Shown here: piece by piece, positions 13,980 through 26,509 of the stretch | Layout of the letters: every line of letters starts with the position of its first letter | How positions within the stretch are numbered: the stretch's first letter is position 1 | Virus record (IMG/VR): IMGVR_UViG_3300032323_001967 | Span: 1 to 26,509 of that record | DNA from: a virus | DNA length: 26,509 nt | Strand: one strand, 5' to 3' | Notes under the pieces: model-generated | The model's input: only the letters and a program-made list of their open reading frames with translations | What the model was told of the DNA's origin: nothing | Databases searched by the model: none | Program-made: the position numbers and the translations under genes

Positions 13980-14006
13980 GCTTTTTGTATTTAACAATTC
14001 GAAACC

Positions 14007-14870
14007 TTAAAATAAGTGATGGTAATCAGAATGTTTACCCCAATATTTATGTTCCTTACTTAAATTATCTTTACGATATATGTTGTAGTGTGAAGTGAAA
14101 TGATTTCCGTGATTGATATGAATGGATTGATTAGGTGCTTCCCATTGTTTTCTTTCCATAGTTTGTGTCTCAATCATACCTGAATTAGTTACTAATGCAT
14201 TTGGTAAAATCAAATTAAAGTGTTCAATTGCATCTTCTATTCTCATTGTCATTTGATGCATTGGTTCATCTCTTTGTCCTTTCTCTTGCCAACCATCTTT
14301 ATTGATACCACCATAATTCATATTAGTCCAAACTGCACCTCTTTCAAATTCAGGGTAATCAAAGTATCCTTCTGCATACATTACATCATGTTCTAAAAAA
14401 GAAACGTAATCGTATTCACCCATTGTTTTTGCAGTGTGAATACATTGAAGTATTTGTAACATTTGATTTAGATGTGAGGAACTTCTATTCCAACTAATTA
14501 TTTCAGTAAAAGGGTTGTTTTCTACTCTATTCCATACACAAGTAATGATATCAGCTTTATTTTCAGATGCTATTTTAATAGTTTCCAAAGATTTTTTTAC
14601 AGCAGGGTGATTTGTTTGGTCGTTTGAATACCAAATTCCTAATCTTCTATTTGTTGATTTTGGATAAACAAAAGTATCACCTTCCTTTACCTTTTCCTCA
14701 AATACCTCTCCTTCTAATTCTCCTATGATTTCCAGATACTTTACCACTCCTGGGATAGTATCACCTATAATTCCATTATCTACTCTTAAAACAATTCTTT
14801 TACCCTTTACTTTTGATTGTATGATTTCTGTACAATCTACTCCTCCATATGTTGCTTTTATTATCTCCAT
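14007..14870 (-). CDS. Glycosyltransferase with an N-terminal accessory domain
   Basis: A 287-residue protein. Residues 1-50 (IIKATYGGVDCTEIIQSKVK, VLRVDNGIIGDTIPGVVKYL) resemble a small DUF3395-like domain seen at the ends of some sugar-modifying enzymes. The remainder looks like a GT-A type transferase: a Rossmann-like region (ADIITCVWNRVE), then VSFLEHDVMYAEGYF with the DxD-like EHD (160-162) that would bind the metal and nucleotide sugar. Late His-rich segments (IHINHGNHFTSHYN) could complete the site. It overlaps the methyltransferase gene by 10 bases and is the third gene of the modification cassette. The sugar and acceptor are unknown. Confidence 0.72.
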   Translation of the reverse strand: MEIIKATYGGVDCTEIIQSKVKGKRIVLRVDNGIIGDTIPGVVKYLEIIGELEGEVFEEKVKEGDTFVYPKSTNRRLGIWYSNDQTNHPAVKKSLETIKIASENKADIITCVWNRVENNPFTEIISWNRSSSHLNQMLQILQCIHTAKTMGEYDYVSFLEHDVMYAEGYFDYPEFERGAVWTNMNYGGINKDGWQEKGQRDEPMHQMTMRIEDAIEHFNLILPNALVTNSGMIETQTMERKQWEAPNQSIHINHGNHFTSHYNIYRKDNLSKEHKYWGKHSDYHHLF

Positions 14871-15382
14871 AAGTGATAGACTCCTACTCTATTTATATCA
14901 TATTCACCTAACTGATAAAGTTGATAATTATTAAATCCCCATTCAACCATCTTTTGTTCACACAAAATACGAGTTGGGTCATTGTGATATTCAATTGCTA
15001 TTTCATCTACAAACTCAATCATTTCTTTTGTAACATTTTGAAAGTGTATTTCAGCACCTTCAATATCACACTTAATAACTTGTGGTTTGTATGTTTCTAA
15101 TAAATCTTCTATTTGTGCATTATGATTGACACATAAATGAAATATATTCCACTTACTATCATCACCATACAATCTATGATACTTTTCAATATCTTGCATT
15201 GCACAATCAAATCCAATTAATTTACTTGCACCTTTGGAAACAAAATATTCTGATGATGATGGCCATCCTTCATTCCAAGTACTATCCCAAAATGAACAAC
15301 CCATGTCCATCACCACTTTGTTTTCACAATTTAGAAATCTCCAATGGTTTTCTGGATTCTCTGATGTTATTTTTTCTATCAT
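14861..15382 (-). CDS. FkbM-type SAM-dependent methyltransferase
   Basis: A 173-residue protein with class I methyltransferase motifs. The SAM-binding loop is VVMDMGCSFWD (23-33), the second acidic strand is LIGFDC (55-60), and KCDIEGAE (104-111) matches the KxDxEGaE signature of the FkbM family, whose members often O-methylate sugars. It lies between two glycosyltransferases with ATGA (4-base) and 10-base overlaps, so the three products are probably made together and act in sequence: add a sugar, cap it with methyl, extend or add another. The acceptor is not known. Confidence 0.8.
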   Translation of the reverse strand: MIEKITSENPENHWRFLNCENKVVMDMGCSFWDSTWNEGWPSSSEYFVSKGASKLIGFDCAMQDIEKYHRLYGDDSKWNIFHLCVNHNAQIEDLLETYKPQVIKCDIEGAEIHFQNVTKEMIEFVDEIAIEYHNDPTRILCEQKMVEWGFNNYQLYQLGEYDINRVGVYHLWR

Positions 15383-16344
15383 AATAATTTGCTGTTTTGT
15401 GCAGTTTTTTCAATCCACTTCCAATATTCATATGAAGCAGTATCTTCTCTTACTTCTATATTTTGATTGTATGGTAATGAGTTCATAAATTGTGCTTTAT
15501 AAAATAAGCCTGATGTTGAATTAGTAACTCCTGCATTATGCATGATATTCATTTTATGGTAATCATCTTTTGTAGATGTACCCCAACTAAAATCAAAGTT
15601 TTGATGACATATAGTATGGTTTTCTCTCAACCAACCATTCCATAATACTGCCCACATATCTGCACACCATATTTGTAATTCGTGATAAGATGGGTCAATC
15701 TGTTTCTTAATATTATTTAAATCTGAAATATTTTTGTATAATACCTCACTATCTCTTTCAACTTTATTCCAATACTCATAATCAATACCTTTCATTAGGT
15801 ATTGTGCCCCTATGGCATTCAATTCATTCCTTTCAATTTCAAATTTGGATATACCTACTATATCACACATTGCTTCTAAAATATCATCTCCTTTTGACTT
15901 TATATAATCATGTCCGATATACCAACGAGTATCACTACCATACCATCTATTATCATTTATCATAACATCAGTAATCCATTCCGTTGGTGGTTTAGAAAAT
16001 ACGATATCACAATCATGGTAAAAGATTGTATCATTAACTAACTCAGGATATTTTTCCCAATGTTGTTTTAATATGTTAGGTCTGATTGATGAAATGTAGT
16101 GTTTAGTTTCTCTTGTATCATCATAGAAAAAGAAACGAGCTGGATAACCTGTTGCAAGTTTAATCCACTCTTCTGGTATTACACCATTTTGTTTCCAACA
16201 TACGATGTCAACATAATTTAAGTTAACACCCATAGATTGGAAATTATTTAACATCACTTCAACTTGCCATGCATAATACAAAGAAGCCGGTTGTGCACAT
16301 ACATAACGTAAGGATTTGCCATCTGCAATTTTTATGCCATTCAT
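15379..16344 (-). CDS. Glycosyltransferase (GT-A-like, DxD motif)
   Basis: A 321-residue protein with an N-terminal nucleotide-sugar region (LRYVCAQPASLYYAWQVEVM) and NDTIFYHDCDIVFSKPP, where D111-C-D113 is the DxD motif that holds the metal-bound nucleotide sugar. Later Trp/His-rich stretches (HELQIWCADMWAVLWNGWLR; MNIMHNAGV) probably form the acceptor site. It has a late-type leader (TTGTTAAATATGAAAA, 16366-16351), so it is timed with virion genes rather than early genes, and directly follows the Thr-rich fibre gene. Glycosylation of virion proteins is the favoured role; modification of a host surface glycan is the alternative. Confidence 0.74.
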   Translation of the reverse strand: MNGIKIADGKSLRYVCAQPASLYYAWQVEVMLNNFQSMGVNLNYVDIVCWKQNGVIPEEWIKLATGYPARFFFYDDTRETKHYISSIRPNILKQHWEKYPELVNDTIFYHDCDIVFSKPPTEWITDVMINDNRWYGSDTRWYIGHDYIKSKGDDILEAMCDIVGISKFEIERNELNAIGAQYLMKGIDYEYWNKVERDSEVLYKNISDLNNIKKQIDPSYHELQIWCADMWAVLWNGWLRENHTICHQNFDFSWGTSTKDDYHKMNIMHNAGVTNSTSGLFYKAQFMNSLPYNQNIEVREDTASYEYWKWIEKTAQNSKLL

Positions 16345-16387
16345 AAAATCTTTTCATATTTAACAACGAAAAGTTATATCGTATCAG

Positions 16388-18121
16388 TTAGCAAGTTACA
16401 TAGTTTGTAATTTCACCACTCGTATTTATTTCCACTGCATATGTGTCTAATGGGCCAGTTAACTTACGCCAACCGGTTGAGCCAACAAACGGAGTTGTTA
16501 AAGCTGTATTGGTATATAAAAACATTCCTACAAATGGTACGGTAAATCCAGCTTGTGCGTAAACAATACTTGTTGTCGTTGCTCCACTACATGCAGATGC
16601 TGAGTCACCACTCGCTCCATTATCAATTTGATACTCCTCAGGTGCACCCGAAGTTGTAGTAGTTGTTGTAGGAGGAACGGTCGTAGTTGTAGTCGTAGTT
16701 GAAGTAGTGCTTGTAGTCGTAGTTGTTCCAACTGTACAACAAGGGCCGTATGAGTCAATTGTAAATGTTGCAGTTCCACCCAATGTATTTCTTTGTACAC
16801 AATTTGGAGTACTTCCAATCACTTCTGGCCCAATACCTACTCCTTGTGTTTGTAATACATCATTACAATCTAAATATGTTACATTTCCTGCACCTGTTAC
16901 TTCAATGTTTACAAATTCAACACAATTACAAGGTATAGTTGTTGTAGTCGTAGTTGGTGCCGCAGTAGTTGTTGTCGTACTAGTCGTTGTTGTTGTAGGT
17001 ACACATGCTGCACAATTACTAAATACACTTCCAAAAGCAAGATTTGTATAATCAGGAGTTCCAACAGGGTCGATTTCTAAAACTTCCCAACAAGTAACAC
17101 CATTAAATCCTGCACCACTATTTCCTGAAATCTTAAACGCTTGACCAATACCAGAAGGAGTAGTTCCACTTCCCAAAGTTACTATAAATGGCCCTGCTCC
17201 ACCACCACAAGGTTCAACTTTGTAAGTTGTAATATAAGTTGTTGTGGTAGTTGTAGGTGCTGCTGTTGTTGTGGTTGTAGTGGTACTAGTGGTACTAGTC
17301 GTTGTTGTAGTAGGAGCCGCAGTAGTTGTTGTTGTTGTACTTGTAGTCGTAGCAGGAGGACAAGGACTTGTTTTACAATTACCAACAGGTGAAAACGTTC
17401 CTGTTCCTGATATAATTTCAACTTGTAGTAATCCACCGATAACTGCTGCACATAGGTATCTTGTACCTGCTGTCATATAAACATAATTCTCATTTTGTCC
17501 ATAACAGTTGAATGTTGCTACTTCACCACCTTCGGAAGTTATATTTACTTCAACACAATTACAAGGGTCAGGACTAAATGTTGTTGTAGTAGTCGTAGGG
17601 CCTAATGTTGTTGTAGTTGTTGATGTTGATGTAGTACTAGTCGTAGACGTAGTAGAAGTTGTAGTTGTGGTCGAAACCGGTACACAACATATACCAAATG
17701 CATCTATTGAATATATTGCAGTACCACCTAATGTAGTTGCATTTATACATCCAGTTCCAAAAGTACCTACTGTTACTAATCCAGGAGTTACACTTTCTGA
17801 TTGAGGTGTACCAAAACAATTTCTATATGTTACAGTTCCAGAAGCAGTCACATTTAATGTAATCGTTTCATAACACTCACAAACCAAATATTGAATTACT
17901 TCATTTAAAAAACATCCTACTGATAAATTGACTAACTTAATACAAGTAGCAGTATCAGGCATTGTAACTATTGCAGTTGACCCAATATTAGGCAAACTAA
18001 CAGAACTTCCATCCACACAAATTGTATAATTTATACAATCATCGGAATAGTATATGTCATATAAAGGTCCTGAATTAACAGACTTTGAAGTTAATGTTAT
18101 TTGTCTATATAGGTTTGCCAT
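16388..18121 (-). CDS. Modular fibre-like protein with Thr-rich linkers and Cys-framed domains
   Basis: A 577-residue protein of five globular parts joined by four Thr/Ser/Pro linkers (about 149-181, 257-297, 365-390, 455-486; e.g. TTTTTTAAPTTTTT). Globular parts 1 (about 75-148) and 4 (about 392-455) are clearly homologous: CEC/CNC start, GTVTYRNC versus GNVTYLDC, and TLGGTAIYSIDAFGICC versus TLGGTATFTIDSYGPCC. Part 2 shares the CNC start. The C-terminal domain (EYQIDNGASGDSASACSGAT onwards) is distinct. Such strings of small beta domains on mucin-like linkers suit a flexible virion fibre that binds carbohydrate. It lies 43 bases before the first glycosyltransferase. Host range or capsid decoration is inferred. 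Confidence 0.72.
   Translation of the reverse strand: MANLYRQITLTSKSVNSGPLYDIYYSDDCINYTICVDGSSVSLPNIGSTAIVTMPDTATCIKLVNLSVGCFLNEVIQYLVCECYETITLNVTASGTVTYRNCFGTPQSESVTPGLVTVGTFGTGCINATTLGGTAIYSIDAFGICCVPVSTTTTTSTTSTTSTTSTSTTTTTLGPTTTTTTFSPDPCNCVEVNITSEGGEVATFNCYGQNENYVYMTAGTRYLCAAVIGGLLQVEIISGTGTFSPVGNCKTSPCPPATTTSTTTTTTAAPTTTTTSTTSTTTTTTTAAPTTTTTTYITTYKVEPCGGGAGPFIVTLGSGTTPSGIGQAFKISGNSGAGFNGVTCWEVLEIDPVGTPDYTNLAFGSVFSNCAACVPTTTTTSTTTTTAAPTTTTTTIPCNCVEFVNIEVTGAGNVTYLDCNDVLQTQGVGIGPEVIGSTPNCVQRNTLGGTATFTIDSYGPCCTVGTTTTTSTTSTTTTTTTVPPTTTTTTSGAPEEYQIDNGASGDSASACSGATTTSIVYAQAGFTVPFVGMFLYTNTALTTPFVGSTGWRKLTGPLDTYAVEINTSGEITNYVTC
16645..17677. repeat. Four trinucleotide-repeat tracts encoding Thr-rich linkers
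   Basis: Tracts at about 16645-16733, 16935-17003, 17231-17353 and 17579-17677 consist of GTNGTN-type triplets on the + strand (ACN Thr codons on the minus), mixed synonymously but with long near-identical runs such as GTTGTTGTAGTCGTAGTTG. Tracts of this kind are prone to slippage and recombination, which could add or remove whole Cys-framed modules. Confidence 0.8.
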
Positions 18122-25524: not shown

Positions 25525-26509
25525 TTATGGACAACCTGGTGTGTTATCGTTTAATACACATCCTGCTGCGTATACTCTTAATGTTCTACCTGCAAAAGTT
25601 AAGTCTTGAAATCCACTACCTGATATATCAAATGATAAAAGAGGACTTACTTGGAAGCCTGGTTGGTATTGGAATTGTAAACTACCACTTACTCTACTTC
25701 TATAATATGTTCCATTCAAATCACCACCTGATGTACAAACAGGACTTACATTCCCACTAAAATTGTAAATAAATGGAGGAGTAGCCAAATCCCACGAAGT
25801 ACCATAAGGAACTGTACAATTTGAGTCACTACTCATAAATAATTTATATTCATTTATAACAACACTATCAATTGTTCCACCAGGAAGAATACTTCCACTC
25901 GCACATACGTTAAAGCCCATTCCACCAGCTTGTCTATTAAATCTAAAATCTGCATCAATTGCACCTGGTGCAACAGTAGTTGTAGTCGTAGTAGGTGCTA
26001 ACGTAGTTGTAGACGTTGTACTTGTTGTAGTAGTTGTTGGTACTAATGTAGTTGTTGTAGTTGTAGGAGCAATAGTTGTTGTTGTAGTTGTACTTGGTGC
26101 AGGTGCTGCCTGTGACCATACAATATATTCATTCACACTATCTCTACTAATAAATGTTTCACCCTCAGGTATTTGGTTTACATATCCAGGTTTATCAATG
26201 GATTGTGATGTAAATACTGCAAGAGAACCATGCCACACATCTTCACAATAAGTAAATGGTGTAGTCGAATTGGATATAGCAGGTGTAAGATACACTCTGT
26301 ATTGGTCTCCAACTATTGAATTACTTGAAATAGATAAATTAAATGACATACTAACAATACTTTCACACTCATTATAAGACCATTGACCTGGCCCATTTAT
26401 GAATGAGTAGTTATCTTGCGTCATCATATTTTGTAAAGTGACTCTTAAATAATTACTGCCAGAACATATCTGTTTTGTTCTTATTGTGTAATCATTGTAT
26501 CCACCTAGG
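25525..26509 (-). CDS. Fibre-like protein with Thr-rich linker, N-terminus cut by window edge
   Basis: The frame is open to the right edge; ATG 26427 is internal, since 27 codons upstream (GGYNDYTIRTKQICSGSNYL and on) are also open and coding-like. A beta-type first domain is followed by a mucin-like linker (about 25975-26097: TTTTTTIAPTTTTTTLVPT and more), then a second domain DADFRFNRQAGGMGFNVCAS ending VYAAGCVLNDNTPGCP. The linker style is the same as in the fibre at 16388-18121, though the domains differ. It precedes portal in the leftward operon. It is likely a virion surface protein and a possible target of the phage glycosyltransferases. Confidence 0.66.
   Translation of the reverse strand, partial: LGGYNDYTIRTKQICSGSNYLRVTLQNMMTQDNYSFINGPGQWSYNECESIVSMSFNLSISSNSIVGDQYRVYLTPAISNSTTPFTYCEDVWHGSLAVFTSQSIDKPGYVNQIPEGETFISRDSVNEYIVWSQAAPAPSTTTTTTIAPTTTTTTLVPTTTTTSTTSTTTLAPTTTTTTVAPGAIDADFRFNRQAGGMGFNVCASGSILPGGTIDSVVINEYKLFMSSDSNCTVPYGTSWDLATPPFIYNFSGNVSPVCTSGGDLNGTYYRSRVSGSLQFQYQPGFQVSPLLSFDISGSGFQDLTFAGRTLRVYAAGCVLNDNTPGCP
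25975..26097. repeat. Trinucleotide tract encoding the Thr-rich linker of the edge fibre
   Basis: A run of GTNGTN triplets on the + strand (for example GTAGTTGTTGTAGTTGTAGG), encoding Thr codons on the minus. It is the same kind of tract as in the fibre gene about 8 kb to the left, and the two loci could recombine with each other. Confidence 0.75.

Follow-up and report, generated by a model that had tools for sequence, protein, structure and literature searches.

Predicted O-glycosylation of poly-threonine virion proteins by a phage glycosyltransferase family

Three putative glycan-modifying genes follow a threonine-rich fibre gene in a stretch of viral DNA of 26,509 nucleotides (positions 1 to 26,509 of IMG/VR record IMGVR_UViG_3300032323_001967, hereafter the window), and their position raises the question of what their products act upon. 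The genes encode two glycosyltransferases, GT1 and GT3, and a methyltransferase, MT. A reading of the sequence alone had proposed that the phage itself makes O-linked, methyl-capped glycans on the threonine linkers of its virion.

The cassette and its threonine-rich neighbours

The window belongs to a tailed phage, since portal and tape measure genes are recognised in it. No near-identical DNA is present in phage records. The order on the minus strand is the second Thr-linker gene, portal, tail genes, fibre, GT1, MT, GT3 and tape measure (Table 1). The fibre and GT1 are separated by a gap of 43 bp, MT overlaps GT1 by 4 bp and GT3 overlaps MT by 10 bp, so that the three genes form one operon directly after the fibre. 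The gene coordinates, all on the minus strand, bear out the sequence-only reading of three mutually overlapping genes behind a fibre with four Thr linkers, and the second gene does carry a linker of the fibre type.

Table 1. Positions of the cassette, the threonine linkers and the leader motif in the window
Feature	Position	Strand	Remarks
Fibre/tail protein, proposed acceptor	16388-18121	-	577 aa, 146 Thr
GT1, phrog_4417 GT-A glycosyltransferase, proposed to add the first sugar to poly-Thr	15379-16344	-	321 aa
MT, class-I SAM methyltransferase with FkbM-like motifs, proposed sugar O-methyltransferase, optional	14861-15382	-	
GT3, N-terminal rhamnose-binding-lectin-like domain and GT-A glycosyltransferase, proposed glycan extender	14007-14870	-	
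Second Thr-linker protein, possible second acceptor	25525-26508	-	5' end beyond window edge
Thr linker 1 (core) of fibre	17606-17674	-	
Thr linker 2 of fibre	17237-17359	-	
Thr linker 3 of fibre	16937-16999	-	
Thr linker 4 (core) of fibre	16679-16726	-	
Thr linker of second protein	about 25972-26094	-	
Leader motif TTGTTAAATATGAAAAG before GT1	16350-16366	-	kept in 23/105 relatives
Second exact leader copy, between GT3 and tape measure	13981-13997	-	

The linkers of the fibre separate cysteine-bearing domains, and the C-terminal part of the protein matches phrog_21885 (E 6e-7). All four Thr codons are used in the linkers, in the same proportions as in other virion genes; the linkers are therefore features of the protein and not DNA repeats, and an origin as a simple-repeat artefact was rejected. 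None of the other virion genes checked in the window exceeds 5 Thr per 20 residues. Against the Pfam family Mucin (PF01456) the second linker gene scores 17.5 bits, a purely compositional match below the cut-off of 34.7, and the fibre does not match.

The late-type leader that had been noted ahead of the cassette is a real motif before GT1, which is confined to one lineage. The sequence TTGTTAAATANNAAAAG has exactly two mismatch-free occurrences, one before GT1 and one within the gap between GT3 and the tape measure gene. In 23 of 105 relatives GT1 is preceded by GTTAAATAnnAAA, which in relatives also precedes the tail gene g21 and is likely to be a lineage-specific late promoter or leader.

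GT1 is a full-length match to phrog_4417 (E 8.3e-64, residues 13-314 on positions 2-291 of the 293 of the profile), the 'prophage pi2 protein 34' type, which is annotated as being of unknown function. Its AlphaFold2 model has a pLDDT of 95.5, and Foldseek finds 118 PDB matches with E <= 0.001 with glycosyltransferases on top, among them WbbM, UGGT, LgtC, LARGE1, glycogenin and the PBCV-1 capsid glycosyltransferase. The TM-scores are about 0.4-0.6, and the relationship is therefore one of common fold and not of close family. D111 and D113 of the DxD motif are invariant in two alignments, of 9 distant and 46 closer sequences. None of the three cassette proteins of the window has a Pfam match, and of 46 GT1 relatives a single one gives a weak hit to Gly_transf_sug (E 0.014); a PDB sequence search with the GT1 profile gave no match and hence no close relative of known activity. 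The predicted fold and the motif show GT1 to be a GT-A glycosyltransferase with DxD.

The model of GT3 (pLDDT 91.2) resembles the GT-A enzymes BoGT6a, SpsA and ppGalNAc-T1 as well as the PBCV-1 capsid glycosyltransferase 2p72, and an EHD motif is invariant in the family alignment. Both glycosyltransferase calls of the sequence-only reading are thus borne out by fold, though by no Pfam match. The N-terminal domain of GT3 matches the rhamnose-binding lectin 5h4s with E 5.5e-13 when the family profile is used and with 0.24 when the single window sequence is used; one GT3 relative matches the Pfam family SUEL at E 0.093. The relatives of MT conserve the motifs DxGC and K-x-DIEGxE and match Methyltransf_31 (best E 1e-6). 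FkbM (PF05050) is matched by 8 of 17 MT relatives, the best E of 0.013 being below the cut-off, and the MT of the window does not match it. MT is a class-I methyltransferase, and its assignment to the FkbM type, made earlier by inspection, is plausible from the DxGC and DIEGxE motifs but stays below the Pfam cut-off. Tblastn of MT and of GT3 against phage records gave no match.

Linkage of GT1 to poly-threonine proteins

GT1 homologs were gathered from viral contigs, bacterial genomes and phage records irrespective of Thr content, and viral loci fetched via GT3 and MT were counted together with those fetched via GT1. Of 114 distinct loci with 1.5 kb or more of upstream sequence, 105 have a poly-Thr protein near GT1 (62/68 in viral contigs, 33/34 in bacterial genomes and 10/12 in phage records), and in 93 of these 105 the poly-Thr gene is immediately upstream of GT1. 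A search for a cassette that is widespread without Thr proteins, the result which would speak against the sequence-only reading, turned up the reverse. Several of the apparently untagged loci have tags that are shorter, farther away or in a shifted frame; in three (L045, L094 and L333) GT1 is present with no clear tag in the stretch covered. One further contig (L060) carries a GT1 homolog and, in place of virion genes, other genes that include a protein of DnaK-type appearance, as judged by eye.

The pairing spans Bacteroidota-type and Bacillota phages with unrelated backbones. In the Bacillota loci the poly-Thr takes the form of a short tag at the C-terminus of the major capsid protein, of a small decoration-like protein or of the major tail protein. 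A single GT1 is accompanied by up to three tagged, non-homologous virion proteins per phage, and two or three are often found.

The converse link is weak. When 100 loci were chosen by a pure Thr run, GT1 was present in 13, in all of which it abuts the Thr ORF; most Thr-run loci have no GT1, and poly-Thr without GT1 therefore exists. A whole-contig search found phrog_4417 elsewhere in 1 of 50 poly-Thr contigs without GT1 nearby, and runs of at least 14 Thr are common in phage proteins from contigs that lack phrog_4417 altogether. A poly-Thr protein is no sign by itself that GT1 is present, and where GT1 is absent the poly-Thr may serve as an ordinary spacer or rely on different enzymes. Some long poly-Thr proteins of contigs without phrog_4417 have GT2 or sulfotransferase neighbours. 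The counts, 4 GT2 and 2 sulfotransferase matches per 145 genes near poly-Thr genes and 2 GT4-type matches per 145 far genes, show no clear tendency of poly-Thr proteins in general to have a glycosyltransferase nearby.

As a control for a general Thr habit, structural proteins were gathered by homology after removal of their tags. Among 72 loci of Bacillaceae-type major tail proteins with sufficient flank, 17 have both GT1 and the tag, 55 have neither and none is discordant; on the tree of these proteins both traits change nine times, always jointly, four of the changes lying on well-supported branches. The Enterococcus phiFL1-like tail proteins (3 both, 11 neither, 0 discordant) and the window lineage as defined by its portal (8 both, 6 neither, 0 discordant) add two supported co-transitions each, and the six members of the window lineage without GT1 are also without the Thr fibre and the entire cassette. 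All eight supported independent co-transitions (4+2+2) are concordant, for which a sign test gives p of about 0.008; the raw Fisher value for the association, 7e-17, ignores relatedness. One tail-homolog locus (L374), the only one of its kind, is without GT1 and still encodes a small poly-Thr protein four genes ahead of the untagged tail protein, and perhaps represents a recent loss of GT1. As judged from gene comparisons, adjacency together with joint gain and loss shows statistically that there is a functional link between GT1 and poly-Thr virion proteins.

Tag anatomy, recoding and the genes behind GT1

The lengths of the Thr runs peak at 5-7 both in the Bacillota tags and in linkers of the window type, and the runs are interrupted by S, SS, xAP or KP. 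The tag ends, that is, the residues after the last Thr run, agree within a phage in 19 of 57 cases against 2.9 in permutations, a count that includes related phages uncorrected. This agreement suggests a tag that is copied between, or commonly recognised on, the non-homologous proteins of one phage.

In seven phages or prophages (L113, L114, L355, L366, L368, L372 and L453) the tag is encoded out of frame at the stop codon. The shift is to the -1 frame at the capsid gene stop in 9183, nattely, VFW and a Listeria fleischmannii prophage, and to the +1 frame at the tail gene stop, with the sequence CCC TAA, in SA2, PT1-4 and TPWB06. In Lactococcus bIL285 (L454:4753-6001), NDKTTTTTTRHD follows the capsid stop in frame, shares an RHD end with the tag of the tail protein and precedes a second stop, so that readthrough of the capsid stop is possible. 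The simplest reading of the shifted-frame and post-stop tags is programmed frameshifting or readthrough, by which only part of the subunits would be tagged. In Listeria phage PSA programmed frameshifting gives longer C-termini to capsid and tail proteins. The likeness lies in the lengthening of capsid and tail C-termini by recoding, including a +1 shift at a CCC-stop as in the tail genes here; the difference is that the added part here is a poly-Thr tag and that recoding is proposed from sequence.

The slot after GT1 is variable. In viral contigs, with overlapping loci of one contig counted separately, it holds GT3 in 67 loci, MT in 36, GT2-type genes in 15 and radical SAM/SPASM genes in 11, and GT25, Gly_transf_sug and APS-kinase types in four loci each. 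No recognisable GT3 or MT is present in the GT1 loci of bacterial genomes or phage records. Of the three-gene cassette and Thr protein that had been read as one set, GT1 and the poly-Thr acceptor are conserved, and GT3 and MT are optional. Because these two are optional and the slot is modular, GT1 forms the core and is likely to act first, and the remaining slot genes would elaborate the glycan. The radical SAM/SPASM and APS-kinase-like genes (e.g. L034:10969-12000 and L071:12995-13465) hint at unusual or sulfated sugars.

Proposed glycosylation and its relation to known systems

From the GT-A identity of GT1 (predicted fold, DxD) and its tie to poly-Thr virion proteins (adjacency, joint gain and loss) we infer that it transfers a sugar to Thr hydroxyls. 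We put the probability that GT1 O-glycosylates poly-Thr on virion structural proteins at roughly 0.85. The acceptor would be poly-Thr in runs of about 5-7 residues broken by Ser or by xAP/KP, and in the window such linkers would be offered by the fibre, whose gene directly precedes GT1, and by the product of the gene ahead of the portal.

It is well established that some phage glycosyltransferases modify sugars of the host surface (PMC12619734). The enzymes considered here might do the same, for receptor change or superinfection exclusion, and lie near tail genes only since both concern adsorption. Among the slot genes as annotated, however, no transmembrane or flippase partner was recognised, and such a role would not lead one to expect the joint gain and loss of GT1 and poly-Thr on homologous capsid and tail proteins; host surface modification was rejected and is highly improbable. 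Glycosylation of phage DNA has been considered because the Enterococcus phages VPE25 and VFW carry GT1 and have glucosylated cytosine. That modification, however, is assigned to a separate T4-like beta-glucosyltransferase, and GT1 is located with virion genes and goes along with a protein tag, for which reasons this role was also rejected, its probability being close to negligible.

Poly-Thr could also be a mere flexible spacer, with GT1 and the tagged gene travelling as a linked module and some other part of the virion being modified. The many Thr-run proteins without GT1 and the usual adjacency of the tagged gene and GT1 would fit such a module. The tagged Bacillota proteins, however, are resident tail and capsid proteins, and the tag is all that their homologs without GT1 lack. 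Capsid proteins encoded several genes away from GT1 carry it too, which makes a mere spacer very unlikely. For O-glycosylation of Thr tracts made by the phage, as the sequence-only reading had it, the comparative genomics is strong and extends well beyond the phage of the window; the glycan itself is a prediction.

The later steps are drawn from gene content. GT3 with its lectin-like domain would extend the glycan on Thr tracts that are already glycosylated, and MT, where present, would methylate a sugar; we regard this sequence of steps as about evenly balanced, and its methyl part as tentative. The methyl cap proposed earlier finds no support beyond gene content and is weak because MT is optional, occurring in roughly one in three of the GT1 loci of viruses. 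A glycan coat may protect the linker or alter surface interactions.

We consider it fairly probable that phrog_4417 and poly-Thr constitute a portable tag-and-transferase system for virion glycosylation in Bacillota and Bacteroidota phages. A C-terminal or linker tag would be gained by unrelated capsid, decoration, tail and fibre proteins, sometimes on part of the subunits via programmed recoding, and would be O-glycosylated by one dedicated enzyme with optional glycan-elaborating genes adjacent. Many phages probably sugar-coat their particles by such a tag-plus-enzyme system. If so, a phage protein family annotated as unknown would acquire a function, the acceptor signature could be read from sequence, and glycosylated capsids or tails would be predicted in phages of lactic acid bacteria, enterococci, staphylococci, Bacillaceae and Bacteroidota, where the purpose of virion glycans could be tested in safe, well-studied phages.

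In the literature outside subscription journals no prior report ties poly-threonine to phage virions or their glycosylation, and virion glycosylation is shown chemically there for only a few mycobacteriophages. No virion glycoprotein was seen in a survey that covered ten other phages (PMC12894461). The closest precedent is the virion glycosylation of the mycobacteriophages Che8, Corndog and Myrna, in which, as the work is summarised in later papers, phage-encoded glycosyltransferases modify the capsid and tail tube proteins with glycans at their C-termini (Freeman et al. 2023, Cell Host Microbe 31:1216, via PMC12619734 and PMC12363180). In the Bacillota relatives here capsid and major tail proteins are likewise tagged at the C-terminus, and the phage-encoded glycosyltransferase is located among virion genes. 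The proposed acceptor here, in contrast, is a poly-Thr tag or linker, found on fibres too, the hosts are Bacillota and Bacteroidota, and the glycan is predicted from genes. At the sequence level, tblastn with two members of the GT1 family gave no match in mycobacteriophage records.

A virus-encoded GT-A enzyme for capsid glycans is also found in the chlorella virus PBCV-1, a eukaryotic virus, and its glycosyltransferase 2p72 matches both GT1 and GT3 in fold, with an identity of about 10%; to our knowledge it has no poly-Thr acceptor. The ppGalNAc-transferases of mucin-type O-glycosylation resemble the proposed system in their Thr/Pro-rich acceptor and in the combination, in GT3, of a lectin-like domain with a GT-A domain that matches the fold of ppGalNAc-T1; the lectin type, domain order and sequence family all differ, so that the likeness is an analogy. 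To phrog_4417, a family previously without function of which GT1 is a full-length member, the present analysis assigns a proposed one.
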